A stretch of 64,000 nt of DNA from Euphorbia lathyris (taxonomy: Eukaryota > Streptophyta > Magnoliopsida > Malpighiales > Euphorbiaceae): NCBI RefSeq assembly GCF_963576675.1, contig NC_088918.1, positions 56,625,501-56,689,500 of the forward strand. The letters are read 5' to 3'. Numbering within the stretch: the stretch's first letter is position 1; every line of letters starts with the position of its first letter. Position numbers and translations under genes: made by a program. The notes beneath the pieces are model-generated. The model was not told where the DNA came from. It did no database searches and worked only from the letters and a program-made list of their open reading frames with translations. This document shows, piece by piece, positions 1 to 37,705 of the stretch.

Positions 1-641
1 TTTTTTTGTTTATTTTATTTTTGTTTTTGTTAATGCAAAACAAACTGTAAGTGCGGGGTTGCACGGCCCTCCGCGTGATTAAAATGACGTGTATTCCAAA
101 GACGTCGCAGCAGAAAGGAAAACAAAAACAAAATGAAAAATAAAGAGGGAATTAAAGAGAAACAAGGACCGTATAGGTCTGTTCTTACGCGAGGCGTACC
201 TAAGGGAACGCTCCGCATAAGAGGTGTATTTTGTGTGAGTTTTGGGCAGAGACTCGGATACGCGGGGCGTGCCCAAAGAGACGTTCCACGTAGACCGAGG
301 AGAAAGCCGTTATTGATTGGACAAGGTGGGTCATGCAGGGCGTAGGCAGGGGTACGCCTCCGCGTAAACCTTATTAATGCACACAAAAACAGGAAAAACG
401 AACACGTAAATAACGAGTCAGTGCAAAATAAAATAGAAGGGCGGAAAATAAACGAACAAAACACAAAATAGAGACCGAAGAAAAGAGATATATATATGAA
501 GACAATAAAAACACCAAATAGAAACAGGAAACGGAAAACATAAAAAACCGAAATGTAAAAACTCAGAAATTACAAAAAAAAGAAAACACAAGGACAAAAA
601 ATCATAAAAACATAAAAACCGAAAACAAAAACATAAAGAAA
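1..641 (-). other. R1 3' noncoding region
   Basis: No credible coding sequence. The DNA is A-rich on the plus strand next to the accessory ORF. It contains three inverted motif modules (187-365) and, near the window start, a block that includes TAAGTGCGGGGTTGCACG. That block recurs at about 14750 (R2) and, in reverse complement, at about 36890 (R3). The 3' LTR of R1 would lie further left. Confidence 0.7.
187..365 (-). repeat. Three inverted two-box modules (R1, downstream of the accessory ORF)
   Basis: Modules start near 187, 259 and 334. Each has a box like ACGCGGGGCGT, 10 bases, then the reverse-complement box like ACGCCCCGCGT, with one or two substitutions per box. In RNA each module could form an 11-bp GC-rich stem with a loop of about 10 nt. 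R3 has three modules at the same place (36586-36763). Confidence 0.85.
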
Positions 642-1898
642 TTATAGCGGAGGCGGAGGAGGATGGCCATAAATGTTGAAGTGGGCGAAGAAGGTGTTGG
701 TGAAGGCGTCGAAGTTTTCCCGGTCCTCTCGCCTTTGGGCCTCGAATGAGTCGAAGCGAGTGGCGAGGGCGACTTGGTCCATGAGGCGATGAGCCTCCAA
801 GGTGTCGAAGCGGGTGGCGATGTTGGCTTCAAGGGTGTCAAATCGGGAGTTGAAGTGGGCCCGATCTTGCCTTTGGTTCCCCTCCAAAATGTCCAACCGG
901 GCATAGATCGATTGGAAGTCGGGGTTGGGTGGTGGGCTAAAGTTGAGGCCAAAGTCCGAGTCCCATTTGTCATCCGCTTGTTGTTGTCCAGCCCTCGAAC
1001 TTTCACCCGGTCTGGAGGGACGGCGTTTGAGGGTTTGGAAGGCATTTTTCTCCAAGGGGCGGGGGTCATAGTGGGGAAGGCGATCAAGGGCGGCGACGCC
1101 AAGAGCGGAGGCGGCATAGATGGTGATTAAGTGCCCCAACCCGAGTTTGGCACGCTTCCGTGAGGGAATTTGGTGGAGCATGGTGGCAACAAGGTAGGAG
1201 AGGTCGAAAGTAAGGCCGTTCTCACAATAATAAAGGGCAAGAAGCTCAAGCTTGTTGACCTTGTTGGCCTCGGATTTCCCCGAGAAGTAGTAATTGATGA
1301 AGCGATGGAGGAGGTAGAGGACGGGATCGCGGATGCTGCCCAGGTGGAGATTGGAGATGTCATAAGTGTCCGACCCGATGATGGTCGTCCAGAATTCATG
1401 GGCAGAGGCATCGGTGGGCCAATGGGTGATGCCGGGATCCATTTGTATGGTGAAATGGTTGCGGATCTAAGACGTGTCGATGGAGTGGGGTCGGTTTTGA
1501 AGGCGAAAGGTGAGGAGTGCGCCACCGGGGACACCATTGGAAGTGAGGGAAGTGTAGAATTCTTAGACCAACGAAGGGTACATGCGGTGGCGTGCACAAT
1601 AATGGTCGTGCCATCCGAGGGCATGAAGGAGATCCTCGAAGGCATGACGAACATCATAACGGTCGAGCACACTGGGGTCGATGTAGGGGAAAGTAATGAC
1701 GGTGGAAGAGGAGATAGTTTGGTAGGTGATCGCCTCCCTTTCAGTGAGAATGTGAAAGGGGGCGTTGTATTGGCAGGTGAGAGGTGGTGTTGCCTCTCGT
1801 TCGGGTGGGGGTGGTGATTGTGTTTGGTTGGAATGGGAGGAGCGGGCACGAGTGGACCGCGGGGGACGGTTATCGGCGAGTCGCTTACTTCGGGTCAT
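642..1898 (-). pseudogene. R1 accessory ORF (Athila ORF-1-like), broken by two stops
   Basis: A single reading frame of about 419 codons runs from an ATG at 1898 to a stop at 642. It has an in-frame stop at 1563-1565 and a second one near 1470 that changes a Trp codon relative to R3. The protein resembles the plant gypsy accessory protein of the Athila ORF-1 type; this is a pattern match, not a search result. Visible parts are a Pro/Arg-rich N-terminus, a central globular region with DFW- and LHRFI-type motifs, and a C-terminal stretch of repeated RFDxLEA-like units that should form a coiled coil, ending in a run of prolines. I see no signal peptide or transmembrane helix, so calling it an envelope gene would be speculative. 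The R3 copy (35186-36387) is better preserved. Confidence 0.7.
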
Positions 1899-2613
1899 GG
1901 TGAGAGGGAGTGAGTGAGATTAGGAGGGAATTAGGAAGTTGGAGTGAGTGTGAGGGAGGAGGGGGGAAGAAATAGGGTAGTTTATATAGGGAAGGCGTGG
2001 GGATCCAGGTAATTTACGAATTCCCAGGGGGTACGCGTGGCGTGAAGGGGCCACGCCACGCGTATCCCACCTCCTGACCAATTTTGGTCCAATAGGGCTG
2101 AGGCACACGGGGCGTGCGTGGGAGCACGCCACGCGTACCTTGGTCTCTGACCGAAAATGATTGGAAGAATGGATAGCACGCGGGGTGTGCATGGGGGTAC
2201 GCCCCGCGTGGAAGACGGTGATTGAATCATTTTTTTTTCGTTTTTTAAAGATATTTTTAATGTTTATGGGTTTTAATGGTTTTTAATTTTTATGGGTTTT
2301 AATGAGTAATTAAGGTGGTGGTTAAATGAAAAATTAATTATGGAGGGAGGTTAATTTATTTTTGAATTTGAAATTAAAGGAAGTGATTGGGGGGAGAATA
2401 GGTAGAGTGGGAAAATGGTGAAAGAAATGGGGAAATGGGGAAAGTGATATGAGTGGTGTTAGAGAGAGGTGGAGTGTTAGAGTGGTGAATAGGGGGTAGG
2501 GTGTCATGGGGAGTTGATTTTCGCAACTCCCCAAGGATACGCGGGGCGTAGCATGGGGAACACACGACCATTTATTTTCACTATGGATGAAGGGGACCTA
2601 AAAACACGCGGGG
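1899..2613 (-). other. R1 spacer between gag and accessory ORF, proximal part
   Basis: No gene. On the element strand this is the region just upstream of the accessory ORF. It carries inverted motif modules at about 2033, 2109 and 2178, a degenerate one at 2539, and half of another at 2606-2613 that was split by S1. A TATA-like run lies near 1982 (TTTATATAGG on the plus strand, read in reverse). The short GGGGAGTTG-type block near 2510 recurs in R3 near 34595. Confidence 0.65.
2033..2613 (-). repeat. Inverted two-box modules (R1, upstream of the accessory ORF, first part)
   Basis: Modules begin at about 2033, 2109 and 2178, each ACGC-type box, 9-10 bases, then the inverted box. A fourth (2539) has one good box and a decayed partner. 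A fifth starts at 2606 and is cut at 2613 by solo LTR S1, continuing at 4225. With the module at 4294 this makes six modules upstream of the ORF, the same number as in R3. Confidence 0.8.
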
Positions 2614-2931
2614 TGATAGCTCCCATTTATATAGGGTTTTTAGGATTAATTTAGTTTGTTTTCCCTTTGTTTCTATTTAATTTTAGTATCGTTTTATTAC
2701 TTTTTAGTTAAAATTAGTAATTTCCTTTATTTATGGTATTTTCGGTGTTTTTAGGGATTTTCAGGGACCTTTCGTGCATTTCCGAACCAGACCCAAGCCT
2801 ATTGGAGCATTTCCGGATCATTCAGGGACCATCAGAGCACTTTTGGGATTCATCAGGGACCATTAGAGCACTTTTCGGAAGCCCATGGACCTAAACAGAT
2901 AAAAGCCGGAGCCACAGTTCCTCAAATAGGA

Positions 2932-3115: not shown

Positions 3116-4224
3116 GGGAGCTAATCCTAATCTTTTAGAGGGGATTAGCCACTTAATAAATTAGAGAGCCGCTAGGGCTTTCTCTCCTCCACAATGTAGA
3201 TTTAGCTTTTATTTCAGTTTTATTTTCCTGTTTCTAGATTAGGTTTATTTCAGTTTTTATTTTCTTTTGTCAAGAACGATTGATGGGAGAAGCTCCGCAT
3301 CTTCTATTTTTATAATTGGAATCGGCAAAACGGGTTTTGGATTTCTATCTCTTTCCCTTTCATCTTTTGCGATTATATTCAATTGAAGCTTTTTCCATTG
3401 TTCCTATTTTCCTATTGCTATGATTGGTTTGTCTATGAACTGATCTCCATCCAATTTGGGATGGGGATGAAATTGATTGTATGAATATGTATGATTAGGG
3501 ATCTAGGACCCTTGATTGATTAGTTTATGCATGCTTAATGCCTAGAAATTGTTAGGAACATGATTTATGCTAGAATGAACATTGATAATGATCAACTAGC
3601 CTGTTTATGTATATAATGTGCTTAATTCCTGTGACCCTGACATTAAATATGATTATAGATAGATGAGAACCTGACCATGGAATCGTCTATACCGAAATTG
3701 TGTAAATCTGACTTCGCTAGAGACCACTAGGAATGAGGCTTTGTGGCTGGGCTACGGCTTTAGCCTTAGTTGTCAATAAACCTAATGCTTTGCATGACCT
3801 AGGGTATATGCCTAATCAAGCTGTCACCCGAATGCATGTGAATAGGTTAGACAAATCCCGTACAAATTTGTCTTTCACTTAGGAGAATTACCTTCAATCA
3901 TTGGTAAAACATAAATCTGAAGTCCCTAAACCCATACATATGATTTAATCAAAGGATTCCTCAACCTATATTGTGCCATCCGTCAATTCACCTTCTACCC
4001 TGTCAATTGTTCACTTTATTTTGTTATCTTTATTGCTTTCAATTAGTTAATTACTTATCAAAAACCCAACTTTTATCCAACCCTCTAAACAATTAGATCA
4101 TTCTAGGTAGATTTGCTAGTTATAACTAATAGTCTTTGTGGTTCGATCTCGTGCTTAGCACAATATTACTTGTTGCGATAGGATACACTTGTCTTATTAA
4201 ATGCTATATATTTTACGAGCATCA

Positions 4225-4324
4225 CGGGGCGTGGTATGGGATACACCCCGCGTAACGTGCTTTTTAGCATCAAAACTGAGCAGAAGCTCATCTACGCGGG
4301 GCGTATCGGTGTGTACGCTCCGCG
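4225..4324 (-). repeat. Inverted two-box modules (R1, second part)
   Basis: This is the continuation of the module split by S1 (its target duplication CGGGG is part of the box) plus a complete module at 4294-4324. Both pairs are inverted with 10-base spacers. Confidence 0.8.
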
Positions 4325-4630
4325 CAGATGTTTGGATTAAAAATGGGATTTGTTTTTTCGTATTGTGGTTTTTATGATTTTTTTTACGTTTTGGGGTGTA
4401 TTTAAAAATGGACGAAACGATCTCGAAAGAAAGGAATGTGGGAAGTTTGTTTAAAAACCGAATGAAAACGAAAATAAGAACAAAATTTTTGAAGGAAGAT
4501 GAAGATACACACGAAGAAAAATAAAAATAATCTGAAAAACGTATATGATACATATAGACAAAGGGTTCGAAAAATGCAAACCGATGCTACGTTTATAGTC
4601 AGAGTAGCTCGACTTTCTCGGCGGGTGTGC

Positions 4631-7292: not shown

Positions 7293-7300
7293 TATTTATA
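7293..7300 (-). promoter_or_regulatory. TATA box of R1 LTR
   Basis: TATAAATA on the minus strand, at the same place relative to the module array as in the R2 and R3 LTRs. Confidence 0.55.
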
Positions 7301-7364: not shown

Positions 7365-7801
7365 ACGCCCCGTGTGGACAGGCAGGCGCCCCGCGTGTTT
7401 TCCCATTCCATTGACAATTTCCTGCATGAGGATCAGATTCAGGCCTGATGTCATAAACACGCCCCACGTGGATAGGCAGACGCCCCGCGTGTTTGCCCAT
7501 TCCGTTGATAATTGACTGTGTGTGGATCAAATTCAGACTGGTTGTCATAACCACGCCCCACGTAGCTTGGAGTGCGCCCCGCGTGGTTGAGCCTCTGGGG
7601 TTCAATAGCTTGAATCATGCCTTTGACGCCACGCACGGCTTGGAACATGCCCCGCGTACCTGAGCTTCTGAAACTTAGATTGAAGAATTGCTCATGTACG
7701 CCCCGCGTATAAGTGGAAACGCCCCGCGTACCTGAGCTCCTGAGATTTAGATTGAAGAATTGCTCCTGTACGCCCCGTGTATAAGTAGAGACGCCTCGCG
7801 T
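7365..7801 (-). repeat. Six direct two-box modules in R1 LTR
   Basis: Modules start near 7365, 7459, 7554, 7628, 7690 and 7770. In each, both boxes (consensus ACGCCCCGCGT as printed on the plus strand) have the same orientation and are 10 bases apart. This contrasts with the inverted pairs inside the element. Confidence 0.9.
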
Positions 7802-11627: not shown

Positions 11628-12637
11628 TGATGCGTGGTTCGTCTAGCTGTGTTTACGGATGTAGTGTGATATGAGTGTGCTATGGGACTATGGATGTGGT
11701 CTTTATAATTTCTCTAAATTCACTAGACGTCACTACTTAGGGGCAAGTGTACCCCATTGTATCAAGTAATAATCCGGTTAAGACCGGGTATCGAATCCAC
11801 GGGATTTATAATTACAAGTATTAGACGACTCGGTTTCGTATGTTATTTAAGCGGTAATTACTTTCGGGTTAAGTAAGACTCAACTACACACTATTCCTCG
11901 ATATTGGCGACACTGATTTATGTAGCTAATACTCTATGAAGTGAGATGAATATGATAAGTTATAACCATGATAAATAATGATTCTAAATGTATACGGATA
12001 ATAGTTTACTCTTGCAAAGACGACTAAGTGTAGTAGAACCGACCCGTGAAGTACTTAGACTACGTGGTTCCTAGTCAAGGCGTGTCTAATGCGGGGGAAT
12101 TAGAAACTAGGGCCCGTAAGTTCCGTGGCTTATCAATTCCTACGGTTTCCGGTTTGTCACTTCCGGTAAGGCAACACCTATATAACTCCCTAAAGATAGC
12201 CCGAATGGCGGCGGTAATCGCATTCTCCTACACAATAATCAATTATCAATATCAAAACAAGCAATAAACATTAACACATAAAGGGAAATAGAGATTATAA
12301 ATCATAAATTATAAATATGGAAAGTGATTAGATGAAATACAACCAAGCCTAGTACATAGGAAGAGTACAAGCTAATTAGCAAGTAAAAAGGGAGAATCCG
12401 CCCTTGGAACTAGCTAACCGGACTCAAAGCCGTCTCCTAGGTCGTGGAGGTGGAACTCTCGAGCTTGGTGACGAATGGTGGAATGGAGCGTCAATGGAAT
12501 GCCGGAACAACGAACAAGCTCTCGAGGGGGGGGGAGAGTTTAACTTACAAAATCTGAATCTAAATTACAAAGAAAGAAAAGAGTATAGTGTAGCTCTCTA
12601 GTATGTAGTTGGTGTTAAATGAAGTTCAAAAGCTTCT

Positions 12638-12645
12638 TATTTATA
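12638..12645 (-). promoter_or_regulatory. TATA box of R2 3' LTR
   Basis: TATAAATA on the minus strand, downstream of the module array in element orientation. The matching box of the 5' LTR is at 21840-21847. Confidence 0.5.
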
Positions 12646-12724
12646 GACATCAAGCAAGGGCAAGTTTGTAATTTCACAAAGCACAAGTATGGAGCAACAT
12701 TATTTGGTGCAGAAATCCCATGAT

Positions 12725-13173
12725 ACGCCCCGCGTAAATTGGTCTACGCCCCGCGTAAATGCCCATTCCGTCAGAAATCTCCTGCATGTGGACCAATTTG
12801 TTGTCTTGTTGTCTCAAGCACGCCCTGCGTAAGGGATTGTACGCCCCGCGTCTTTGAGTCTCTGGAGTTTTATTGCTTGAATTGGTACTTTTACGCCGTG
12901 CGTAGCTGAAGTACGCCCCGCGTAAAAGAGTCTCTGATCTTTTTATGTTGAAGAACTGCCTTTTACGCCCCGCGTATATGGTGGTACGCCCCGCGTAAGG
13001 AGAGTTGACTCTGGGAGACAATGCAGTCTGACTTTCAGGATTAGGCCAATTATTGTCGACATGTGTCATACGCCCCGCGTATGCTGAGTCAGTTCCACAT
13101 GGCTTCTGCGGATAAGGCAATCATTACCGACACCATGTTTCACGCCCCGCGTAGGGGATTATACGCCCCGCGT
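12725..13173 (-). repeat. Direct two-box modules in R2 3' LTR (one module halved)
   Basis: Pairs of same-orientation boxes ACGCCCCGCGT (as printed) are separated by 9-10 bases. Five full pairs are present plus one single box near 13070, where the other LTR has a full pair. The missing 21 bases are flanked by CGCG, suggesting slippage or recombination between boxes. Confidence 0.9.
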
Positions 13174-13410
13174 ATGGAGTGGATTTTTGCTCATTTCTCG
13201 TACCTGAAATACAAAACTTGAGAGCCGAGTTAGCTTGACGTTTTTATTTCCTAAACTAATCAAAAACATGGAAAATAAACTGAAAGTACGAGATTTATTT
13301 TTATTTCTTTATTTTATCAAAACACTTTATTTTTGTAATTAAACTTATTTATTTTATCTAAAATCAACCCCTAAATCACGCTAAAAGATAGGGGTAAAAT
13401 ACCCCTATCA

Positions 13411-15352
13411 AACCTCCTCGGACTTTAAATTTTTACTTGTCCTCAAGTAAAAGAAATCGAAAGACAAGGGATTGAGAAAATTAGGAAACAAACCGAAGGT
13501 TGGTTTTGCCAAGTGCGTGATTTCAAAGTTATGGTTTTGTGCAAAGGTTCCGGTAAGTACCTACGCAAACAATTGAGTACGAGACTTTTCTGAAACCTCC
13601 ATGATCAAGATTTAATAGGCAATATTAACGGGGGTTGATTATCTTTTGAGAACCCGATAGTACCTCACCAAGGGATTTCGCTCTTACGCTCAATTTTAGG
13701 TGGGTCGGTGTTTTTTCACTCTTCTTTACACTTACTCGAGACCATATTGAATTTGCATTTTTATCCGGGTTTTTCCTCCTAAATATGGTTAGGCAATATT
13801 AAAAATGAACCCGGAGGGGGGTTGTAATGTGGGTGGCTTCTTTAGTGGTTAGTTTAAAGAAACTCGAGTTCAAAAATACCGTTTTGTGATTGCACCGTAT
13901 CATTGCTTATTTTGGCCTTAGCGAATTTTACAAGACGTACTTCAAAATTGCTCGGGTGGAGCTTTGAGAATGCCTTATTATTTATTGTATCATTTGTTTT
14001 GATAGAGGCACAAAAACAATATTTTGAGAGCTAATGGTGCTCATTTGCTAAGGCCGTGACTTATTTCGGGTAATTCGGGTGCAACTTGATTATGTCGGTA
14101 ATTGGACAAGAGGAAAAAGGGTTAAATGTTAAGAGGGTATTAACAAAAAAAGTTGGTTAATAGGCTTGAGGGGGTTTCCTAATGTTTAATGAAAACGAGA
14201 AAAATAAATTAAGAAAAATTAGCCTAAGTGGGTTCGGTTTATCATCTATTGCCTTTTTACCACAATAAGTGTACTTAACCCGGTATTAGATGCAAATACG
14301 ATGAGTCGAGTGAAGTCAAAGTTCTCGAAAAAGTGTGAAAGAATTAGAGTTCTCGTACGAACTCTTTTAGGCTCAAAATACCTCACAAAGATTCGGGTTT
14401 AAATTGTGTACTATCAAGTCTTCGCTAAATTCTCAACTATCCCATTTTTATTGCCTTTTCAAAGTTCATTATGGAGATAACATTCGGGTTTAAGACTCAG
14501 TGCCTTAGTTTAGTACTAATCCTAAGTTTGCACAAATTCCCTAACTTTAAGATCAAGTCTAAAATTTCTTAATCGAATCATTCCTTTATGTTCCGACACT
14601 TTTATTTTTGATGACAAATAACGGAACTTTAATTAATTTTCGAGGGAGGGATAGCATGTCGGGAAAATTTAAAAGAGTCAATAAATTAGTTTAATTATTT
14701 TGTTGTTATTAAATTTTTATTTTTGTTTTTGGTAGTGCAAAACAAACGTTAAGTGCGGGGTTGCACGTCCCTCAGCGTTATTTAAAATGACGCCTATTCC
14801 AAGGGCGTTGCAAAAAGAAATTAAAACAAAAACAAAAATAAAGCTAAGGAATGGAAAGAAGAAGACCCTAAGTGGCCAGGGGCCCTACGCGAGGCGTGCC
14901 CAGGGGGGCGCTCCGCGTAGGGTGGCGTTTAAATCCTTTATTTGGGCAGAGACTTAAGTACGCGGGGCGCAATAGGGGAGGCGCCCCGCGTAAGTTGTTG
15001 TTTTTATTATTGATGGAGTCAGAGACTCAAATACGCGGGGTGCAATAGGGGACGCCCCGCGTATTTGAGGTTCTGAATTTTAGGAACCACGGAAAGGAAC
15101 TTATACGCGGGGCGTAAGAGGGGGTACGCCCTGCGTAAAAGGTGTCTCTTGCAGAGTTTTGGATCAGAGGCACAAAGACGCGGGGCGTGCATAGGAAAAC
15201 GCCCCACGTATTATGTCGAATTGGGATTTGGCTTTCCGTGGCTGGGAAGCGAAACGAAGAAAACAAGGGAAAATTGAACAGATATATACAGGGAGTTTGA
15301 GAGAGTCAAACCAATGCTACGTTTTCTCGACTTTCCTTTCTGATGTGCAAGC
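13411..15352 (-). other. R2 post-pol noncoding region with purine tract
   Basis: There is no gene here, although R1 and R3 carry the accessory ORF in this interval. Next to pol are five inverted motif modules. The remaining roughly 1.4 kb is AT-rich and homologous to the tail of R3 (about 36840-37705). The last bases before the 3' LTR read GAGGAGGTT on the minus strand, the likely polypurine tract that primes plus-strand DNA. R4 has the same tract at 53861. Confidence 0.75.
14887..15209 (-). repeat. Five inverted two-box modules in R2
   Basis: Modules start at about 14887, 14960, 15033, 15104 and 15178. Each is an ACGCGGGGCGT-like box, 8-10 bases, then its inverted partner. They are spaced about 72 bp apart and share flanks of CAGAGACT type. 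Confidence 0.88.
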
Positions 15353-18300
15353 TTACGGTGGTGCGAGGAGTGTGGTTTCGCCTTGTTGTGGAAAAACGCC
15401 GCCGCGGTATATCTTTAGACGGTGGCCATTGACCCGTAGGGTTGCATTGTCGGAACCTTGGATTTCGCATGCCCCGGAGGGGTGCACATTGATGACGGTG
15501 TATGGTCCCGACCACCGACTTTTCAATTTTTCGGGAAATAACCGGAGGCGAGAATTGTAGAGGAGAACTTGATCCCCGTTGCTGAACTCCTGAATTTGGA
15601 TGTGCTTGTCGTGCCACCGCTTGGTACATTCTTTGTAGAGTTTGGCATTTTCGTATGACCCCAAGCGGAGTTCATCAAGAGTATTGAGTTGGAGGAGGCG
15701 GTGTTCTCCCGCAGCCTGCATGTCAAAATTTAAAATTTTTAGCGCCCAATAGGCTTTATGTTCCAATTCCACGGGTAAATGGCATGATTTTCCAAAAACT
15801 AGACGATAAGGGGACATCCCGATGGGCATCTTAAACGTCGTGCGGTAAGCCCAAAGAGCATCATCGAGCTTCAAGCTCTAGTCTTTTCTAGAGGAGCTAA
15901 CCGTTTTTTCTAAAATACGTTTTAACTCTCGGTTAGAAACCTCAACTTGCCCACTAGTTTGCGGGTGGTAGGGTGTAGAGACCCGGTGTGCAACCCCATA
16001 TTTAAGTAAGAGTTGATCGAATTGTCGGTTGCAAAAGTGGGAACCCCCGTCGCTAATGATAGTCCGAGGGGTTCCGAACCGAGTGAAAATGTTTTTCTTT
16101 ATGAATTTCCCTACCGCCTTAGAGTCGTTTGAAGGTAGGGCGACGGCCTCCACCCATTTGGAGACATAGTCAACCGCTACAAGAATGTAAGCGTTGTTAT
16201 GCGACTTAGGGAAAGGTCCCATGAAGTCTATCCCCCAAACGTCAAAAAGTTCGCAAACTAAGATTCCTTGTTGGAGCATTTCGTGGTTTCGGGAAATGTT
16301 TCCGCTCCTTTGACAAGCGTCACATGATTTGACGAAGTCTTGGGAATCTTTGGACAAAGTAGGCCAATAAAACCCACATTGTAAGACTTTTGCCATAGTC
16401 CGACTAGGGCCAAAATGGCCCCCCGGCTCTTGGGTATGACACATATGTAACACATGATTAACCTCTTCTTCCGGTATACACCTACGAATAATGTTATCGG
16501 CACAAGATTTGAACAGATAGGGTTCTTCCCAAAAATAATGCTTAGCATCGTGAAAGAATTTCTTACGCTGCTCATATGTAAGGTGCGGGGGAAGAATATT
16601 ACCGGCTTTGTAGTTTGCCATATCGGCATACCAAGGTAAAGATGTTACCGCGTAAAGTGCTTCATCGGGAAAGGTCTCCTTAATCTCAACAGCTTCCGAA
16701 GATTCGCCTTGCTTGCCTTATAAGCGAGAGAGATGATCAGCCACAACTCCACTCCTTTTTTATCTTTGATCTCGATGTCGAATTCTTGTAGGAGTAGGAT
16801 CCACCGTATCAAGCGTGGTTTGGTGTCCTGCTTAGTCATCAAGTATTTGAGAGCTGCGTGGTCAGTGTATACGATAATTTTGGATAACACAAGATATGAC
16901 CTAAATTTATCGAAAGCAAAAACAACGGCAAGCATCTCCTTTTCCGTGATGGAATAGTTTTGTTGGGCCTCATTGAGCGTTTTGCTCGCATAATAGATAG
17001 GGCGAAAGAGTTTATCCACCCGTTGGACCAAACAAGTGCCTACAGCCAAATCACTCGCATCACACATGAGTTCAAAGGGGAGGTTCCAATTGGGTTTCAC
17101 CATGATAGGTGCATTAACTAGTTTTTCCTTTAGCGTATTAAATGCAAGTAAACATTCGGGGGAAAAACTAAATTCCGCATCCTTTGCAAGGAGTTGGGTC
17201 AAGGGGGTTGCTATCTTAGAGAAATCCTTGATGAATTGTCTATAGAACCCCGCATGACCCAAGAAACTCTGAATTCCCTTAACGTTGATTGGTGGAGGTA
17301 GTTTTTCAATTACCTCGATCTTGGCCGGGTCGACCTCGATCCCCTCCCCGGACACCTTGTGTCCCAAAACAATGCAATCTTGAACCATAAATTGACATTT
17401 TTCCCAACTTAGCATAAGGTTAGTGTCTTCGCAACGTTGGAGGACCTTATCAAGATTACTTAAACAAATTTCAAAGGACGACCCAAAAACAGAAAAATCG
17501 TCCATGAAGACTTCCATGAAATCCTCAATCATTTCGGAGAATATAGCCGTCGTGCACCTTTGAAAGGTGGCGGGGGCGTTACAAAGCCCAAATGGCATCC
17601 GCCTATATGCAAATGTCCCATACGGACAAGTGAATGTCGATTTTTCCTGATCCGAAGGATCGACGGGAATTTGCATATAACCGGATAAGCCATCGAGGGT
17701 GCAAAAGAATTTATGACCCGCCATTCTTTCCAACATTTGGTCGATGAACGGCAAGGGAAAATGATCTTTTCGGGTGGCTTCGTTAAGTTTTCTATAATCA
17801 ATGCATACTCGCCACTCGGTTACTTTCCGTGTGGGGATTAATTCCCCTTGATCATTTTCCGTCACCGTTGTGCCCCCCTTTTTGGGAACACATTGGACCG
17901 GGCTAACCCATGGACTATCGGAGATAGGAAAGATTATACCTGCGTCGAGGAGTTTGATTACCTCGGCCTTCACTACCTCTTTCATATTGGGGTTAAGCCG
18001 TCGTTGCGGCTGCACGGAGGGCTTGACTTTATCCTCCATAAAGATGCGGTGCGTGCAAATGGTGGGGCTGATCCCTTTTATGTCGTGAATGGTCCACCCA
18101 AATGCGCCTTTATGTTTTTGTAATACCGCAATTAACGCCTCCTCCATTTCCACTGTCAAAAGCGAAGAAATAACAACCGGTAAGAAATTAGGAGGTTGCA
18201 AAAATACGTATTTTAAATTAGGAGGCAAGGGTTTGAGTTCCAAAGTTGGAGGTTCCTCAAGGGAGTTCTTCAGCTTTACTTTGCTATCCCGGTCTAAACC

Positions 18301-18471
18301 CTCAAACCGGCTCCTTGCCAACAGACATCGTTCTATTTCGGAGGAGTATTCAAACGGCTTGTTCAATGGCTCCTCATCCAAATGCTCAATACCATCCATT
18401 TCCGAAGAGGTTCCCGCGGAAGACCTCTTTGTCTTGCAACCGTAGGATGAGCTTACCTTCATGGACGTCAA
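15353..18471 (-). pseudogene. R2 pol: RT, RNase H and integrase with frameshift and stop
   Basis: Read on the minus strand, the RT block (18471-16645) contains [12 protein letters not shown] and the active-site FMDDFSVFG. RNase H follows with MCDASD, a [11 protein letters not shown] motif and YTDHAAL. The frame shifts near 16750, just before the ADHLSRL-type end of RNase H. Integrase (about 16700-15353) has the HHCC zinc site (HMCH, GGHF, CDACQ) and the D,D,E residues ([25 protein letters not shown]). A TAG at 15878-15880 replaces the Trp codon seen in R4. A further shift separates RT from protease near 18400. The domain order is Ty3/gypsy. This copy should not make a full polyprotein. Confidence 0.92.
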
Positions 18472-20674
18472 TGAGAGTCCTACCTGTTGCAGGGAATGGT
18501 CGTCCTAGGAGGATCGGTACCGAATCGTCTTCCGCCATATCAAGCACTACAAAATCGGCGGGGAAAATGAACTTGTCCAGTTTCACTAAGACATCCTCCA
18601 CAATTCCTTTTGGCCGGGCAATGGATCTATCGGCCAGCTGAAGCGTCATATTGGTAGGCTTAGGTTCTCCCAAACCGAGCTTCCTGAATACAGATAAAGG
18701 CATTAGATTGATGCTAGCACCTAAATCACATAAAGCTCTCCTAAACTCAACATTACCAATCGTGCAAGGGATAGAAAAACTACCTAAATGCTTGAGTTTA
18801 GGTGGGAGTTTGTTCGTTATAATCGCGGAGCATTCCTCCGTGAGCGCTACCGTTTCATTATAATCCAACTTCCTCTTTTTGGCGAGGATTTCTTTAAGAA
18901 ACTTCGCATATGTGGGCATTTGCTCCAATGCTTCCGCAAGTGGAATGTTAATGTGAAGTTTTTTAAAGATTTCCAAAAACTTGCCGTATTGGTGGTCCAA
19001 TTTTTCCTTTTTAAATCGTTGTGGAAAAAGGAGCTTCGGCACGTAAGCTCCAATTGGGTCACACACATTTTTATTCTTATCCAAGGAAGTTGAGGGTTTT
19101 GGATCTGAACCGGGGTTGCTTACCACTTCCGGTTCATTACTTACATGTGGAGTAGGTGGAGTCGCCTTTGGAACCTGTGGTTCCAAACCCTTACCACTAC
19201 GGAGAGTTATTGCTTGTGCGGTCTCCCAATCTTTTGGTTTCGGGTTTTGTTCGGTGTTAGTCGGGGGAGACCCATGTTGTCTCCCTTGTTGTTGGCGGCT
19301 TAATTGGGCCACTTGCTGTCCCAAGTCCCTGTAAAATGCTTCGTTGTTAGCAAGACGGGAAGATATTTCTTTAAGGAGATCAATTACCATTGCGTCTTGC
19401 GCATTGCTAGGGGGTTGTGATTTTTGCCCTTCTTGGTCATGAGGGAATTGGCCCAACCCTTGTTCCACAAATTTACCATGGGGATCGGATGGGGGCTTCA
19501 ATACATTCCGCTCGTTATCATAAGATGGAATGTGTTGAAGCCTCCTTCCGTTATTATTATTGTTATGGTGGTGATAAGCATGCGTGTTAGGATAGGAGTT
19601 ATAATGAGAATTATACCTTTGTTGTCCCCCTACATAACTTACACTTTCGGTGTCACCGGAAAAAGGGCTTCCGGCTTGACAATCCTTACCTTGGTGGCCA
19701 CCACCACAGTGAGAGCACACCAAGACTTGTGCTGAATTTTGGAGGCTCATTTGCGCCATTAAGGCGTCTAGTTTCTTGTTCATTTCGATCATGAAGATTG
19801 TGGGAGCCTCGTCTTCTACGGCAAAAGTTTGATGTTGCGAGGGTCCGACAAGCCGATCTTCTTGCCATTGGACGCTTTTCCTAGCTAATTCGTGAATGAG
19901 CTCATACGCCTCGCTTGCCGATTTGCGAAACAAATCCCCACCTGCGGCGGAATCAACGGTTGCACGATTAGTCGGTGTTACACCATGATAAAAAGTACTT
20001 ACTAAATCATGCTTAGGGATATCGTGATGGGGACAGCTTCGGAGCAGCTTTCGGAACCTAGCCCAAGCTGAGTGGAGGGCTTCGTATCTAAGTTGCCGAA
20101 AGGAAGTGATATCTTTTCTCAATTTAACCGTTTTAGAGGGCGGGAAGTAGTAAGATAGGAATTCCTTCTCGAGTTCCTTCCATGATGTGATCGATCCCGC
20201 TTCTAACGAGTGCAACCATTCCAACGCCTGTCCTGTCAAAGAAAAAGGAAATAGTTTTAGTTGGACGGCCTCAACTGGAACATTATTTTGCCGTGAAGTT
20301 TCGGCACACATAAGAAATTTATCAAGGTGTTCGTTAGGGTTTTCATGGGGTTCCCCTCCGAATTGACCGAATTATTGGATTAATTGGATCATGCTAGTCT
20401 TTATTTCAAATGTGTCGGCCGGAATGGTGGGGGCAACGATTCCGTGGTGGTTTTGAGGACGATGTGGAGCAAGAATCTCCAACATCGAACGCGTGTCGTT
20501 GCCTTCACCATTACGGTCGTTATTCACGGGTTGTTCCGGCACCCTTTGGTTGAGCTCGGGCTGGTTAGCTTCATCATTGAGATTTGCCATTCTCTCTTTT
20601 CGAATCCTACAAAGAGTACGTTCAATTTCAAGATCAATAGGAATAAGAGAATCACTTTTCGATCGGGTGTGCAT
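18386..20674 (-). pseudogene. R2 gag-protease, one nonsense codon
   Basis: One frame from the ATG at 20674 to 18386 encodes about 760 residues. A single TAA at 20372-20374 stands where R3 has CAA. In order it holds an N-terminal region (PIDLEIERTL), the capsid block (GQALEWLHSLEAG, then RSCPHHDIPKHDL), a zinc knuckle CX2CX3HX4C (CSHCGGGHQGKDC), a His/Asn-rich stretch, the AITLRSG motif and a retropepsin domain. The protease has CDLGASINLMPL as its active-site region (DLGAS rather than the usual DTGAS/DSGAS) and VPILLGRPF downstream. This is the reference for judging the pol deletion in R1 and R3. Confidence 0.9.
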
Positions 20675-20807
20675 AAAGTAAAAAGAAGTATAAAAGGTTA
20701 TCAACAAGAAAGAATAATGTTAGTAAGAGTATATATAAACAATTTATAAAAAAAGAATGCTTAAACTAACAATGAAACGTTTTTGTCTAATATTGTAGGA
20801 AATTATA

Positions 20808-20827
20808 AATCCCCGGCAACGGCGCCA
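20808..20827 (-). other. R2 primer binding site (tRNA-Asp)
   Basis: The minus strand reads TGGCGCCGTTGCCGGGGATT six bases after the 5' LTR. This is the site described for Athila/Tat elements, complementary to the 3' end of tRNA-Asp. Confidence 0.88.
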
Positions 20828-21839
20828 AAAACTTGATGCGTGGTTCGTCTTGCTGTGTTTACGGATGTAGTGTGATATGAGTGTGCTATGGGACTATGGA
20901 TGTGGTCTTTCTAATTGCTCTAAATTCACTAGACGTCACTACTTAGGGGCAAGTGTACCCCGTCGTATCAAGTAATAATCCGGTTAAGACCGGGTATCGA
21001 ATCCACGGGATTTATAATTACAAGTATTAGACGACTCGGTTTCGTATGTTATTTAAGCGGTAATTACTTTGGGGTTAAGTAAGACTCAACTACACACTAT
21101 TCCTCGATATTGGCGACACAGATTTATGTAGCTAAAACTCTATGAAGTGGGATGAATATGATAAGTTATAACCATGATAAATAATGATTCTAAATGTATA
21201 CGGATAATAGTTTACTCTTGCAAAGACGACTAAGTGTAGTAGAACCGACCCGTGAAGTACTTAGACTACGTGGTTCCTAGTCAATGCGTGTCTAATGCGG
21301 GGGAATTAGAAACTAGGGCTCGTAAGTTCCGTGTCTTGTCAATTCCTACGTTTTCCGGTTTGTCACTTCCGGTAAGGCAACACCTATATAACTCCCTAAA
21401 GATAGCCCGAATGGCGGCGGTAATCGCGTTCTCCTACACAATAATCAATTATCAATATCAAAACAAGCAATAAACATTAACACATAAAGGGAAATAGAGA
21501 TTATAAATCATAAATTATAAATATGGAAAGTGATTAGATGAAATACAACCAAGCCTAATACATAGGAAGAGTACAAGCTAATTAGCAAGTAAAAAGGGAG
21601 AATCCGCCCTTGGAACTAGCTAACCGGACTCAGAGCCGTCTCCTAGGTCGTGGAGGTGGAACACTCGAGCTTGGTGACGAATGGTGGAACGGAGCGTCAA
21701 TGGAATGCCGGAACAACGAACAAGCTCTCGAGGGGGAGAGTTTAACTTACAAAATCTGAATCTAAATTACAAAGAAAGAAAAGAGTATAGTGTAGCTCTC
21801 TAGTATGTAGTTGGTGTTAAATGAAGTTCAAGAGCTTCT

Positions 21840-21847
21840 TATTTATA
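21840..21847 (-). promoter_or_regulatory. TATA box of R2 5' LTR
   Basis: TATAAATA on the minus strand, followed by AGAAGC. It is the likely promoter for R2 genomic RNA, placed just after the module array. Confidence 0.55.
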
Positions 21848-21926
21848 AACATCAAGCAAGGGCAAGTTTGTAATTTCACAAAGCACAAGTATGGAGCAAC
21901 ATTATTTGGTGCAGAAATCCCATGAT

Positions 21927-22394
21927 ACGCCCCACGTAAATTGGTCTACGCCCCGCGTAAATGCCCATTCCGTCAGAAATCTCCTGCATGTGGACCAATT
22001 CGTTGTCTTGTTGTCTCAAGCACGCCCTGCGTAAGGGATTGTATGCCCCGCGTGTTTGAGTCTCTGGAGTTTTATTGCTTGAATTGGTACTTTTACGCCG
22101 TGCGTGGCTGAAGTACGCCCCGTGTAAAAGAGTCTCTGATCTTTTTATATTGAAGAACTGCCTTTTACGCCCCGCGTATATGGTGGTACGCCCCGCGTAA
22201 GGAGAGTTGACTCTGGGAGACAGTAGTCTGACTTTTAGGATTAGGCCAATTATTGCCGACATGTGTCATACGCCCCGCGTAAAGTGGTATACGCCACGCG
22301 TATGCTGAGTCAGTTCCACATGGCTTTTGCGGATAAGGCAATCATTACCGACACCATGTTTCACGCCCCGCGTAGGGGATTATACGCCCCGCGT
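21927..22394 (-). repeat. Six direct two-box modules in R2 5' LTR
   Basis: Six pairs of ACGCCCCGCGT-like boxes have the same orientation within each pair, with spacers of 9-10 bases. The fifth pair (about 22269-22300) is the one halved in the other LTR. Confidence 0.9.
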
Positions 22395-22630
22395 ATGGAG
22401 TGGATTTTTGCTCCTTTCTCGTACCTGAAATACAAAACTTGAGAGCGAGTTAGCTTAACGTTTTTATTTCCTAAACTAATCAAAAACGAGGAAAATAAAC
22501 TGAAAGTACGAGATTTATTTTTATTTCTTTATTTTATCAAAACACTTTATTTTTGTAATTAAACTTATTTATTTTATCTAAAATCAACCCGTAAATCACG
22601 CTAAAAGATAGGGGTAAAATACCCCTATCA

Positions 22631-23519
22631 AGCAGCTTATATACTAGGGATAAAGATCTATAGAGATAGATCAAGAAGACTGCTTTGTCTTTCATAGGCT
22701 ACATACATTGAAAAGGTGTTAAAGTGGTTTAGCATGCTTGAATCGAAAAGAGGTAACTTACCCATGGTACATGGGGTAAAGTTAAACAATCATCAATGTC
22801 CTAAAACAGAAGATGATAAGAAACGCATGGCTGTAATTCTGTATGCCAGCGCGATTGGTTCTATTATATATGCTATGATATGCACTAGACCTGACGTAGC
22901 ATTCGCGTTAAGCATAATGAGTCGCTATCAAGGAAATCCGGGTGATGAGCATAGGAATGCCATCAAGAAAATTCTTAAGTACTTGAGAAGGACTAAAGAC
23001 ATGTTCCTAGTGTATGGAGAAGGGGATCTGAAAATAGAAGGATTTTCAGATGCCAGTCATCTCACAGATGAGAACGATTTTAGATCCCAATTAGGATACT
23101 TGTTTATCTTGAATGGGGGCGCGGTCGGTTGGAAGAGTTCCAAGTAGGGAAGCGTGGCTTTCTCTACGACCGAGTCTGAGTACATAGCTGCTGCGAAGGC
23201 AACAAAGGAAGCAGTTTGGGTTAAGAAGTTCATTACCGAACTTGGTGTGGTGCCTGACATTGTGAATCACATTACTCTGTACTGTGATAACAATGGAGCC
23301 ATTGCACAAGCAAAGGAACCACGGTCTCATAATGCATCCAAGAATTACCTTAAGCGATACCACCTTGTAAGAGAGGTTGTTGCAAGAGGAGATGTGAGAA
23401 TAGAAAGAGTACCTATAGAGGACAACGTATCTGATCCATTGACAAAGCCCTTAACCCAAAAAGTACATTATCGTCATTTGAGTTCTACTGGGATAAGTTG
23501 TAGAAACAATTGGCTTTAG
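22631..23519 (+). pseudogene. C1 pol, second part (RT end and RNase H)
   Basis: This continues the C1 frame after R2, starting with the duplicated AGCAG. It includes the copia RT tail (CTRPDVAFALSIMSRY), the RNase H region (SDASHL, then STTESEYIAA and YCDNNGA) and the end of the polyprotein at 23517-23519. In-frame stops near 22694 and at 23145 break it. The second fits CAG to TAG in the KSSKQG context. Nothing suggests activity. Confidence 0.88.
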
Positions 23520-30951: not shown

Positions 30952-31422
30952 ACGCGGGGCGTATCTCCCTTCACGCGGGGCGTGGAACACTTGGTCAGAA
31001 ATAATTGACTCAATCCACAGGCACCACGTGGAATCTACTCACCAATACGCGGGGCGTATCAACAACCACGCGAGGCGTGGAACATGTGTCAGAAATGATA
31101 AGCCTAATCCTGAAAGTCAGACAGCATGGTCTCCCTGAGTCAACTACCCTACGCGGGATGTACCACCTTACACGCGGGGCGTGTAAGGAGGTTCTTCAAT
31201 CCAAAAAGCTCAGAGACTCATTTACGCGGGGCGTACTTCAGCTACGCGAGGCGTAAAAGACCCAATTCAAGCAATAAAATCTCAGAAACTCAACCACGCG
31301 AGGCGCACCCAAGTATACGCGGAGCGTGGTTGAGACAACAAGATCTGGATTTGGTCCATATGCAGGAGATTTCTGACGGTATGGGAAACTACGCGAGGCG
31401 TACTCCACCATACGCGAGGCGT
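30952..31422 (+). repeat. Six direct two-box modules in R3 LTR
   Basis: Modules start near 30952, 31046, 31151, 31223, 31297 and 31391. Both boxes of each pair are ACGCGGGGCGT-like in the same orientation, 9-10 bases apart. Substitutions are mostly GGGG to GAGG. Confidence 0.92.
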
Positions 31423-31501
31423 GTCATGGGAAATCTACAGAAAATCATGTTCCTCCATGCTTGTATTTTATGAATTACAATTCTACCCCTAGCTTGATGT
31501 G

Positions 31502-31509
31502 TATAAATA
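31502..31509 (+). promoter_or_regulatory. TATA box of R3 LTR
   Basis: TATAAATA followed by GGGG, about 80 bp downstream of the module array, the same layout as R1, R2 and S1. Confidence 0.55.
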
Positions 31510-34141: not shown

Positions 34142-35185
34142 GCCGCCGAATGAGAAAGTCGAGCTACTTCGACTCTAAACGTAGCATCGGTTTGAATTTT
34201 TCAAACCTTTTGTTTATATGTATCATAACCGTTTTTTAACTTATTTTTATTTTTATTTATTCTCTCTTTTATGTTATTTTTAGTTTTCCTCTTTTAGTTA
34301 TTTTTATTTTTTTATTGTTCTTTCTTATTTTTATTTTTATTTTGTTCTCATAAATCAAAAGAAAAACAAATCCCATTTTTAAATCCAAATTTTTTTAATC
34401 ACGCGGGATGTACAACCCAGTACGCCCCACGCATCTTCGTGTCTGACCCATTTTCACAATAAAAGACACGTTACGCGGGGCGTCCTTCCTACCACGCCCC
34501 GCGTAACCTTCGGCAATTGACCCCCTCTCAAGTAAACGCCACGTATTGGACACGCGGGACGTGCCCTAGGGCACGCCTCGCGTATCCTCGGGGAGTTGTG
34601 AATTGCAACTCCCCATGGCAGCCTTTCTCTCTCCCACCTTTCCCATCACTCTCTCCTCTTCCCCAAAAATCTTTCCCACTTCTCCACTCCACCTCCTCTC
34701 TCCTCCAATCACCCTTCACCTTTTCAAATTCAAAACTTCCCTCTTCATTATTTTTGTAACCACCCTCTTAATTGTTCATTAAAATAATAAAAACATTAAA
34801 GCAATTAAAACCCATAAAAAAATTCAAAAAAAAAAAAACTCCTTAAAACCGAAAAATTGTTCGTTCCACGCGGGGCGTACCACCATTTACGCCCCGCGTC
34901 CTCGCCCCTCTCCTTTCAATTTCGGGCCAGGAGGTGCGATACGCGAAGCGTGCTTCCCTACACGCCCCGCGTACCGTGCCATTTTTGCGTCAAATAATGG
35001 GCAGAAGGTGGGATACGCGTGGCGTGGCCTCTTCACGCCCCGCGTACTCCTCTGGGAATCCGAGTTTTACTTGGATTCCCCACTCCTCCCCTATAAATAC
35101 TCCCCCTTTTTCCCTCTTCTTCCTCACAACTCATTCTAACTTCCCACACCCTTCCTACACACTCTCTCAATCCCTCACTCACACC
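34142..35185 (+). other. R3 spacer between gag and accessory ORF
   Basis: No pol and no other gene. The first 60 bases match DNA just past the R2 integrase. A T-rich stretch follows, then six inverted modules (34401-35045). A TATA-like TATAAATA at about 35092-35099 lies roughly 90 bases before the accessory ORF start and may drive it; R1 has a less clear counterpart. Confidence 0.6.
34401..35045 (+). repeat. Six inverted two-box modules in R3, upstream of accessory ORF
   Basis: Modules start near 34401, 34473, 34551, 34868, 34940 and 35013. Each is box, 9-10 bases, inverted box. The orientation rule is the opposite of the LTR arrays of the same element. Confidence 0.9.
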
Positions 35186-36387
35186 ATGGTAAGACGAAAA
35201 CAGGTTGTCGACATGCGCCCCCCACGGTCCACTCGGGCCCGTACCTCTCGTACCCAACTACGCCAATCACCACCACCCCCGAACGGGAGGAAACACCACC
35301 ACTCACCTGCCAATACCGGGCTCCTTTCCATCTTCTCAGCGAAGAAGAAGCCCAATCCTACCAAACACTCTCCGCCGCCCACGTAATGGAACTCCCGTAC
35401 ATTGAACGTAGTGTTCTTGATCGCTACAACATTGGAGGTGCCTTCGAGGACCGCCTCCGTGCTCTAAATTGGCTCGATCACTATCGGGCACACCACCACA
35501 TCTATTCTTCATTGGTCGTGCAGTTCTACACCTCCCTAGAATCCAACAATGTTCCCGGAGCCGCCCTCTTCAACTTCCGCCTTCACAACCAACCTTTCTC
35601 CATTGACACCCAGTGGCTCCGCAAGCATTTCACCGGTCAAGCGGAGGCGGGCATTGCACATTGGCCCGATGATGTCTCCCCTCATGATTTTTGGACCTCC
35701 ATCACCGGGTCCGATGATTACGATATCTCCAACCTACGCCCGGCATGCATCCGCGATCTAATCCTCCAACTTCTCCACCGCTTCATCTCCTTCTACTTCT
35801 CGGGGAAGTCCGAGTCCACCAAGGTCAATAAGTACGAGATTTTGGCCCTTTACTATTGTGCAAACGGCCTCACCTACGACCTTTCCTACCTCGTGGCCGT
35901 CCAACTCCACTACATGCCTACCCAAAAACCTGGCAAAATCGGGTTGGGCCATCTCATCACCATCTTCGCCACTTCCGCTCTTGGCGAAGCTGCCCTTGAC
36001 CGCCTCCCCAGCTTGGAGCCGCGACCCTTGGAGAAAAATTCCTTCAAATCACTCAAGCGCCCTACCTCCGGCTCGGGTGAAACTTCGGGGGCGGCCCACT
36101 CAAACGAGGAGGAAGGCTCGGACTCGGACATGGGGCTCAATTTCAGTCCACCACCCCTCCACGACTTCAACTCCCTCTATGCTCGGTTGGATATTTTAGA
36201 GGACAACCAACGCCAAGATCGGGCCCACTTCGACTCCCGCTTCGATTCCCTCGATGCTCGCCTCGATGCCTCTGAGGTTCAAAGGCGTGAGGATCGGGGC
36301 CATCTCGATGCTCGCTTCGACGCCCTCACCAACTCCTTCGCCTCCTACTTCAACATCCACGGAAATCCTCCCCCGCCTCAACCTTAG
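35186..36387 (+). pseudogene. R3 accessory ORF (Athila ORF-1-like), near intact
   Basis: The ATG at 35186 (MVRRKQVVDMRPPRSTRA) corresponds to the R1 start. A single-base loss in a C-rich run near 35275 shifts the frame, after which it is open to 36387. From the internal ATG at 35386, 333 residues are continuous. The protein has a globular middle (HDFWTSITGSDDYDISNL, LLHRFISFYFSGKSEST, LALYYC) like the Athila ORF-1 family. From about residue 255 it has repeated RFDxLDARLDA-like heptads that predict a coiled coil, then a short tail of prolines. No transmembrane segment is evident, and the role of the family is unknown. Codon use is GC-rich compared with the gag and pol nearby. The coiled coil suggests self-assembly, which is inference only. 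Confidence 0.72.
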
Positions 36388-37705
36388 TTTCCCTTTCTTT
36401 GTTTTTATGTTTTCCTTTGTTTTGTGTTTATTTTAGTTCGTTTTCATTTTCTTGTTTTTGGTATCTTTTTTGTGTTTTTATTGTACTTTCTTTTTTCTGT
36501 TAATATATTTCCCTTTTTGTTTCGTTTGATTTATTTCCTCTTTTCGTGTTCCTTTTTCTCTGTCTATGCACCTTTAATAACCTTCACGCAGGGCGTACTC
36601 CATTTTACGCCCCGCGTGCTCATCATTTTTCTTGAATAAAACTCTCAGAAACTCAAACACGCGGGGCGCCCCTCTAAGCACGTCCTGCGTATTTGAGTCT
36701 CTGGCCAAACTTCGTTTAAAATATATCTCCTACGCAGGGCGCACCCCTGGGCACGCCTCGCGTAGGACCTGACCTTCAAGGGTCCTATTTGTTCATTAAA
36801 ATTCCTTCTTTATTTTTGTTTTTGTCTTTCTTTTCTTTTGCGACGTCCTTGGAATAGACGTCATTTTAATAACGCAGAGGGCCGTGCAACCCCGCACTTA
36901 CCGTTTGTTTTGCACTAACAAAAACAAAAATTAAAATTAAATAAACAACAAAATAATTAAACTAATTTATTGATTCTTTAATTTTTCCGACACACTACTC
37001 CCTCGGAAATTAATTAAAAGTTCCGTTATTTGTCCTTAGATGTAAAGACATTAATACAAAGGATCGGTTTTAGTAAGAAATTTTAGTCTTAATTCTGAAG
37101 CTCTAGAATTTATGCAAAGCCTAGGTTCGTACTAAACAAAAGCATTGATTCCTAACCCACAGGTCATCTCCATAATGAAATTCAAAAAGGCAATAAAAAC
37201 AGGATAGTTGAAAATTTGAACAAGAACTTGAACGTACACAATCAACCCGAATTTTGTGAGGTAATTTTGAGCCTAAAAGAGTTCGCACGAGAACTCTATT
37301 TATTTCACAATTTTTGAGAGCTTTGACTTCACTCGACTCATAGAGTTTGCACCTAATACCGGGTTAAGTACACTTATTTTGGTTAAAATGGCAATAGATG
37401 ATAAAACGAACCCACTTAGTCTAATTCTTTTCTTAAATTATTTTTCTCGTTTTCATCAACCGCTAGGAAACCCCCTCGAGCCTATTAACCGACTTTTTTT
37501 TTGTTAATACCCCTTTTTAACATTTAACCATTTTTTTCCTCTTGTTTAAATACCAACAAAATCAAATCGCACCCGAAATAAGCCAAGGCCTTGAAAAGTA
37601 AGCACCATAAGCTTTCGAAATCATTTTTGTGCCGCTCTCAAAACAAAAAAAAAAAGAAAAGGAAAAAACACAATAAAGAGAAAAAGGCATTCTCAAGCTC
37701 CACCC
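36388..37705 (+). other. R3 noncoding tail
   Basis: T-rich DNA after the accessory ORF, then three inverted modules (36586-36763). Next comes the conserved block with GCAACCCCGCACTTA (about 36890) and AT-rich sequence matching the R2 tail. It is cut by C3 at 37705. No gene seen. Confidence 0.7.
36586..36763 (+). repeat. Three inverted two-box modules in R3, downstream of accessory ORF
   Basis: Modules are at about 36586, 36658 and 36732, spaced about 73 bp, with inverted boxes and 10-base spacers. The flanks include CTCAGAAACTCA and GAGTCTCTGG. This matches the three-module group of R1 at 187-365. Confidence 0.88.

Follow-up and report, generated by a model that had tools for sequence, protein, structure and literature searches.

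Athila retrotransposons of Euphorbia lathyris carry arrays of an 11-bp box, set in pairs and spaced by whole turns of the double helix, which probably serve as face-aligned DNA-binding arrays at the promoter in the long terminal repeat (LTR) and at a promoter inside the element, in front of an accessory open reading frame (ORF), rather than as RNA hairpins. The window analysed is a stretch of 64,000 nucleotides on contig 9 (NC_088918.1, positions 56,625,501 to 56,689,500) of the 1.02-Gb genome, and the retrotransposons in it are of plant types. Three of them bear the box: R2 (11628..22631, minus strand), a type A element with gag and pol and no ORF-1, and R1 (1-7801, minus strand) and R3 (30707-38000, plus strand), type B elements with gag and the accessory ORF and no pol match. 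A first-pass annotation had described two-box modules with direct boxes in the LTRs and inverted ones inside the elements, an observation that is real and mostly accurate.

The box and its paired modules

The box, ACGCGGGGCGT, has the layout ACGC-GGG-GCGT. It is a quasi-palindrome whose polarity is carried by the middle three bases alone, so that 'orientation' refers to these three bases only, which corrects the earlier description. Exact copies number 41,448 genome-wide (20,359 + 21,089), compared with 158 (87 + 71) for the reversed motif used as control, and the window holds 99 sites at up to two mismatches, where six simulations with a first-order Markov model gave 3-7. The predominant pair distance in the genome is 21 bp. 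Exact direct pairs with a spacer of 0-30 nt occur 3331 + 3528 times and exact inverted (+-) pairs 856 times, the control giving none of either kind. Among the matches listed, which come from the first part of contig 1, the spacer is exactly 10 nt in 95 of 100 direct pairs and in 45 of 50 inverted places, and at the sampled loci, taken without seven non-Athila loci, the 21-bp distance holds for 172 of the 194 direct pairs and for 130 of the 162 inverted ones. The module of two boxes with a 10-bp gap proposed in the first-pass annotation is thereby confirmed, and genome sampling places its spacing and orientation in Athila far from random. The spacer keeps its length while its letters are diverse (98 distinct sequences in 171 direct modules, 100 in 120 inverted ones); a shared GAGACTC-like flank is found in a minority, namely 23 of 171 direct and four of 120 inverted modules. 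In a random sample of four 10-kb stretches (L019-L022), one contained a box array, of the LTR type and with ten boxes.

Some LTR boxes are accompanied by a CAGAGACTC-type flank, which is mirrored by the second box of some inverted modules (window 12820-15209 and 36659-36700), again in a minority of modules. A further context of the box, GGTGCCGGACTC...TCTAGAAAATATAAA, occurs on contig 1, for example at 16299748 and 43735809, and probably belongs to another family. The 11-mer also lies inside the lettuce fluorescence in situ hybridization probe Oligo-ls350, as given in the available part of PMC11598091, which may reflect chance or a related Asteraceae repeat.

Helical phasing of the arrays

The distances between successive boxes are mostly 20-21, 51-53, 71-75 and 82-85 bp in the LTR, ORF-proximal and downstream arrays, and the values of 21, 52, 73 and 84 bp correspond to whole helical turns, least strictly so in the ORF-distal arrays. 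In the 42 Athila LTR arrays (455 boxes) periodicity peaks at 10.4 bp with an R of 0.913, the highest value in a jitter control, in which the long distances were displaced by as much as 5 bp, being 0.472. The 18 ORF-proximal arrays peak at 10.45 bp (R 0.945; control maximum 0.703) and the 13 downstream arrays at 10.4 bp (R 0.942; control maximum 0.648). Another lineage agrees with this phasing, as ten non-Athila arrays peak at 10.35 bp (R 0.921; control maximum 0.642). The phasing set includes the Athila LTRs found in L024 and L025; lone boxes and clusters of fewer than four boxes were dropped from the phasing and TATA counts, and all counts leave out L001-L008, L015 (overlapping L014) and the first 6 kb of L013 (overlapping L012). 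The earlier suggestion that a spacing of two turns brings both boxes of a module onto one face of the DNA is thus supported and extends to the longer distances within the arrays: the distances between modules, on which the first-pass annotation was silent, are regular too.

Polarity of the pairs

In the window the pairs with a gap of 10 bp are direct in the four LTR arrays and inverted in the internal arrays, always in the order G-box then C-box, as had been annotated, with one undecided box in each copy of the R2 LTR. Across the sampled loci, leaving out the non-Athila loci L023-L027, L029 and L030 together with the Athila LTRs inside L024 and L025, the pairs at 19-23 bp comprise 194 direct, 162 inverted (+-) and 21 undecided ones, and the opposite inversion (-+) is found in none of these 377 pairs. 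All 53 internal arrays contain inverted pairs. The sampling was seeded on contig 1 with 20 consecutive inverted places and 20 consecutive direct clusters, places already fetched being excluded. All 20 inverted seeds fell in the interior of Athila elements, near or past the ORF or else past pol, where the pairs are inverted, and all 20 direct seeds in Athila LTRs, where the pairs are direct save for a recurrent undecided box. Excluded from the 20 direct clusters were five neighbours from the same stretch that had been fetched earlier as odd-looking, all of them non-Athila; two of these (L023, L024) are direct and three (L026, L027, L030) mixed. An opposite box was met in six of 50 LTR-class arrays: four are non-Athila (L025 twice, L029, L030), and in the other two (L054, L055) it is a spurious, overlapping match with two mismatches.

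The rule of direct pairs in the LTR and inverted pairs inside is thus a property of the Athila families, and the lattice of distances is shared more widely; the rule is not general, since the LTR arrays of another Ty3 family are mixed. The annotated constancy of spacing and orientation accordingly stands for Athila and fails for other families, and it is unclear for the recurrent undecided LTR box. This box, ACGCACGGCGT, is midway between the two polarities, lies 20 bp from its partner and was seen at window positions 12893 and 22095, at 7142 in L009 and at 7490 in L011.

TATA boxes at a set distance from the arrays

The LTR arrays are followed by a TATA box. In R1 the direct U3 array (7365..7801, minus strand; 11 boxes at up to two mismatches, all in one orientation) ends 64 bp from TATAAATA at 7293..7300. 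In R2 the 3' LTR array (12725..13173) and the 5' LTR array (21927..22394), both direct and on the minus strand, each end 79 bp from the same octamer (12638..12645 and 21840..21847), and in R3 (array 30952..31422, direct; TATA 31502..31509; plus strand) the distance is again 79 bp. TATAWA lies 76-82 bp past the array end in 38 of 41 Athila LTR arrays, or 38 of the 49 LTR-class arrays with enough sequence, the chance expectation being about 0.011 per 6-nt window. The 11 arrays outside this range are eight non-Athila ones, R1 with its 64 bp, and L018 and L071, which lack TATAWA.

A second TATA box follows the internal array closest to the accessory ORF. In R3 the ORF-proximal array of three inverted modules (34868..35045, plus strand) is followed 46 bp further by TATAAATA (35092..35099), and in R1 the corresponding array (2033..2209, minus strand, three modules) is followed after 44 bp by TATATAAA (1981..1988). 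Among the 18 ORF-proximal arrays sampled, 14 have TATAWA in the range of 43-48 bp and the remaining four have TATTTAWA at 45-47 bp, the distances observed being 44-47 bp, so that all 18 carry a TATA-like box at that distance if TATTTAWA is counted. Genome-wide, an exact C-box is followed by TATAWA at 35-60 nt in 1310 cases (500 + 810), and the control gives 0 + 0. Among the matches listed, the first 100 of these 1310, 55 rows are of the internal leader type and represent 39 places, 16 rows being a second TATA at a place already counted, and the other 45 belong to other contexts; the distances at the 39 places are 46 (31 places), 47 (three), 45 (three), 44 (one) and 55 (one). Downstream of the internal TATA, each of the five copies read has a pyrimidine-rich leader and, at 90-111 nt, an ATG (in R3 the first ATG is at 35186..35188, plus strand), and from this ATG the frame runs through ORF-1 in two of the five, the second copy in L012 (390 aa) and L009 (418 aa). 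The first-pass annotation had considered different jobs possible for the two kinds of array, protein binding in U3 and RNA structure or packaging inside; this division is not supported, as the ORF-proximal array also precedes a TATA box and is equally phased, and the paired boxes lack significant compensatory change.

Between the internal array and its TATA lies a conserved dyad, GGGAATCC-GAGYTTTRCTT-GGATTCCC (35054..35080, plus strand, in R3). Its folding in 15 copies gives ten pairs, and at two of these a double change has preserved the pairing, which is weak evidence for structure.

The other internal arrays are likewise built of inverted modules. R3 has an ORF-distal array of three (34401..34583) and a downstream array of three (36586..36763), both on the plus strand, and R1, on the minus strand, has two ORF-distal modules (4222..4325) and a downstream array of three modules with decayed boxes (187..365). 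The reported scheme of six modules upstream and three downstream of the ORF is therefore correct for R3; R1 has five clear modules upstream, together with lone boxes at 2539 and 2606. In R2 a downstream array of five modules lies between pol and the 3' LTR (14887..15209, minus strand), with no TATA in the sense of the element. For a possible antisense promoter at the downstream array, a TATATACA at 73 bp on the antisense side was seen only in two related type A copies.

Box conservation and RNA pairing

Conservation is higher in the boxes than in the remaining array sequence for the LTR (0.901 against 0.779), ORF-proximal (0.913 against 0.698), ORF-distal (0.855 against 0.685) and downstream (0.846 against 0.589) classes, in a comparison that leans toward conserved columns, as box columns were picked by the presence of the box; the set leaves out the Athila LTR within L025.

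That the inverted modules might fold in RNA as 11-bp stems had also been put forward, and this proposal is not borne out. In 162 inverted pairs the complementarity of the two boxes is 0.8586, compared with 0.8549 for shuffled partners (standard deviation 0.0036), a value reached by 14% of the shuffles, or by 7% when G-U is counted as written; an earlier partner-shuffle test with 53 pairs likewise gave no significant excess of pairing. Perfect complementarity is found in 30 of the 162 pairs, and doubly changed positions number 22 where 17.5 would be expected; at 14 of the 22 the pair is restored. With no significant compensatory change in either test, RNA hairpins were rejected as the function of the box. 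The lack of significant compensation, together with box conservation, phasing and the fixed distance to the TATA, points to binding at the level of DNA.

Two promoters and their alternatives

The arrays would, on this evidence, be promoter-proximal activating elements of two kinds of promoter: one in the LTR, from which full-length RNA would be made, and another, distinct one inside the element, from which the pol-less elements would make a short mRNA encoding ATHILA ORF-1. The boxes would be the binding sites of a sequence-specific protein, probably a host factor and dimeric on the quasi-palindrome, which would occupy boxes on one face of the double helix. Protein binding, the host origin of the binder, activation and use of the internal TATA are what we infer from the sequence. 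Barring an exchange of LTR sequence, ORF-1 itself is a less likely binder than a host protein, because the box and the lattice occur in another Ty3 lineage and neither that lineage nor type A has an ORF-1 match. Conceivable candidates for the binder, none of which we claim, are CAMTA (CGCG core), VOZ and NAC half-sites.

Several points weigh against this reading, in addition to the lean of the conservation comparison noted above. The 22 ORF-distal arrays are phased less well (R 0.807, peak at 10.15 bp, control maximum 0.717) and show extra distances of 49-50 and 57-60 bp. TATAWA follows none of the 22 ORF-distal and none of 12 downstream arrays, and a promoter model has no explanation for the function of these two classes, nor does it explain the split between direct and inverted pairs. 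From the first ATG after the internal TATA a stop is reached before ORF-1 in three of the five copies (R1, R3, where it comes after 66 codons, and the first copy in L012). In the non-Athila elements of L023 and L024 the array lies 192 bp from the TATA. Since the copies are related and distances are inherited within families, the phasing and the TATA distances amount to few independent events, and the sharing of the box between lineages could result from exchange of LTR sequence.

The boxes may instead bind a factor, element-encoded (perhaps ORF-1) or of the host, that keeps CpG-rich promoter arrays unmethylated, by analogy with VANC on VANDAL elements; we regard such anti-silencing as unlikely, yet as an explanation to be reckoned with. 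The CpG observed/expected ratio is 1.2-1.4 in the four arrays measured, compared with 1.04 for the remainder of the R2 LTR and 0.81 for the window, arrays lie on both sides of ORF-1, with two array positions lacking a TATA, and a sister Athila, R4, carries a different palindromic box array in its LTRs. The VANC motifs are likewise tandem, short and non-coding in the available part of PMC5735166, and for the sunflower Athila cluster 2 a drop in LTR methylation with high GC is given in the part of PMC12844716 at hand. Against anti-silencing, the same boxes occur in type A and in L025, which have no ORF-1 match, and the structure model of ORF-1 shows no DNA-binding fold, being too poor to do so (mean predicted local distance difference test score, pLDDT, 36.4; a C-terminal helix alone is suggested).

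Rather doubtful is a further possibility, in which the polarity of the second box acts as an address: to a single factor, host or element-encoded, a direct pair would signify the LTR promoter and an inverted pair the internal one, different lineages in this genome would have converged on the phased code, and genomic and ORF-1 RNAs would be switched separately. Neutral tandem expansion, by which a 73-bp unit was duplicated and spacing and polarity were inherited without selection, appears improbable. The modules are related, with the GAGACTC flank shared by a minority, and related LTRs share layouts; yet the boxes are conserved above the spacers in aligned columns, the spacers keep length and not sequence, and the lattice recurs in a different lineage. 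Finally, an RNA-level role, with the inverted modules as hairpins for packaging of genomic RNA or as a source of small RNAs, is very improbable despite the perfect pairs and restored changes noted above, as pairing does not significantly exceed that of shuffled partners, hairpins need neither phasing between modules nor a fixed distance to a TATA, and L025 mixes direct and inverted modules in its LTRs.

Coding content of the elements

The two LTRs of R2, about 1.8 kb each, are 96.4% identical and enclose the domains Retrotrans_gag, aspartyl protease, RVT_1, RNase H, H2C2 and rve, a gag/pol set of the Ty3 type. In R2 and others the primer-binding site TGGCGCCGTTGCCGGGGA, which may be that for tRNA-Asp, follows the LTR end. 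The accessory ORF of R3 (35386..36387, plus strand) matches ATHILA ORF-1 (PF03078; E 6.9e-5, 22.3 bits against a cut-off of 20.2), presumably an envelope-like protein; the corresponding region of R1 (642..1697, minus strand) is homologous to it (66% identical) and has no Pfam match of its own. A protein search with ORF-1 returned 3873 candidates, none at E<=0.001. Both element types recur elsewhere: L014/L015 contains gag-pol without an ORF match, L012 has two copies with gag and ORF and without a pol match, the second of which is also within L013, and L009 has ORF-1 with neither a gag nor a pol match in the stretch examined. The presence of pol-less elements with gag and ATHILA ORF-1 beside gag-pol elements lacking the ORF possibly reflects a division of labour. 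An ORF with a match to PF20167 (putative plant transposon protein) lies elsewhere in the window, at 60887-62248.

Arrays in other families

Nine loci (L023-L031) were fetched for their unusual-looking direct pairs. L023 (657-4155) and L024 (673-4072) contain small elements whose LTR-like repeats measure about 760 bp (those of L023 are 98.6% identical) and whose arrays are direct; no gag or pol match was found in them. In L025 a 763-bp LTR pair surrounds a Ty3 gag-pol whose pol is 34% identical to Athila pol; we take this element to be chromovirus-like, although Pfam gave no chromodomain. Direct and inverted boxes are mixed in its LTRs (1413-1889, 3689-3976 and 8785-9547), and an inserted Athila LTR divides one of these. 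The arrays in L026, L027, L029 and L030 are mixed as well. The Athila rule is followed by L028 and L031 and by the Athila LTRs that lie in L024 and L025.

R4, also in the window, is without an array of the present box; its gag is 51% and its pol 80% identical to those of R2. The palindromic box in its LTRs, CCTGCTCGSCGAGCAGG, is present in eight and six copies at 19-42 bp (46961-47690 and 53870-54560), and these are not phased at 10.45 bp (0.16 and 0.49).

Relation to known systems

The general arrangement is known from the Sireviruses, which qualifies the earlier statement that no case had been described; for the split between direct and inverted pairs no description was found in the literature searched. 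As far as the available part of PMC2829016 (Bousios et al. 2010) goes, these Ty1/copia elements repeat palindromic CpG-rich boxes, the repeated-motif (RM) boxes, 200-400 bp into the LTR, 5' of the TATA, and have a further box cluster 5' of the envelope-like gene, a linker cluster that envelope-less elements lack. For the expression of such ORFs in plant LTR retrotransposons, the proposals given in the same part of that source are splicing, suppression of a stop codon and transcription from an internal promoter, the last not conclusively identified. The arrays described here resemble these RM boxes in their place in the LTR 5' of the TATA, and in the further boxes 5' of the envelope-like gene, represented by 18 ORF-proximal and 22 ORF-distal arrays. 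They differ in that the elements are of the Ty3 and not the Ty1/copia kind, as seen from the Ty3-type pol and from ATHILA ORF-1, that the box is only quasi-palindromic, its middle being polar (ACGC-GGG-GCGT), where all but one of the Sirevirus boxes in PMC2829016, so far as available, have a CGG-CCG core, that the TATA is at a fixed distance, and that type A keeps a downstream array without ORF-1. As the Sirevirus boxes are palindromic, polarity is barely defined in them, and no lattice, 21-bp paired modules or polarity split was found in the accessible part of PMC2829016.

Our elements may also be compared with two other systems. Non-autonomous LTR elements with gag and without pol are known as TR-GAG. 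Such elements are named in the part of PMC6696364 available, and the type B elements R1, R3 and those of L012, with gag and no pol match, may be comparable, differing in that they add ATHILA ORF-1 with an apparent promoter of its own. The VANDAL elements resemble the Athila elements in having dense non-coding arrays of a short family-specific motif in an element with its own accessory gene; they differ in being DNA transposons with an AT-rich motif and a known binder, and no rule of promoter distance was found for them in the accessible part of PMC5735166. In the literature searched, which held little subscription material, no phased box pairs, direct/inverted split or occurrence of the motif were found for Athila. 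What appears to be new here is the phased paired boxes, the polarity split and the internal TATA at a fixed distance, and what is of a known kind is the Sirevirus-style box array.

For the Athila families, the predicted internal promoter of the accessory ORF thereby gains a concrete address, a TATA at a set distance past a box array. The phased and polar arrays would offer a test case for one DNA-binding factor acting on two promoters of one element. As such arrays also occur in another lineage, several elements may be exploiting one and the same host factor.

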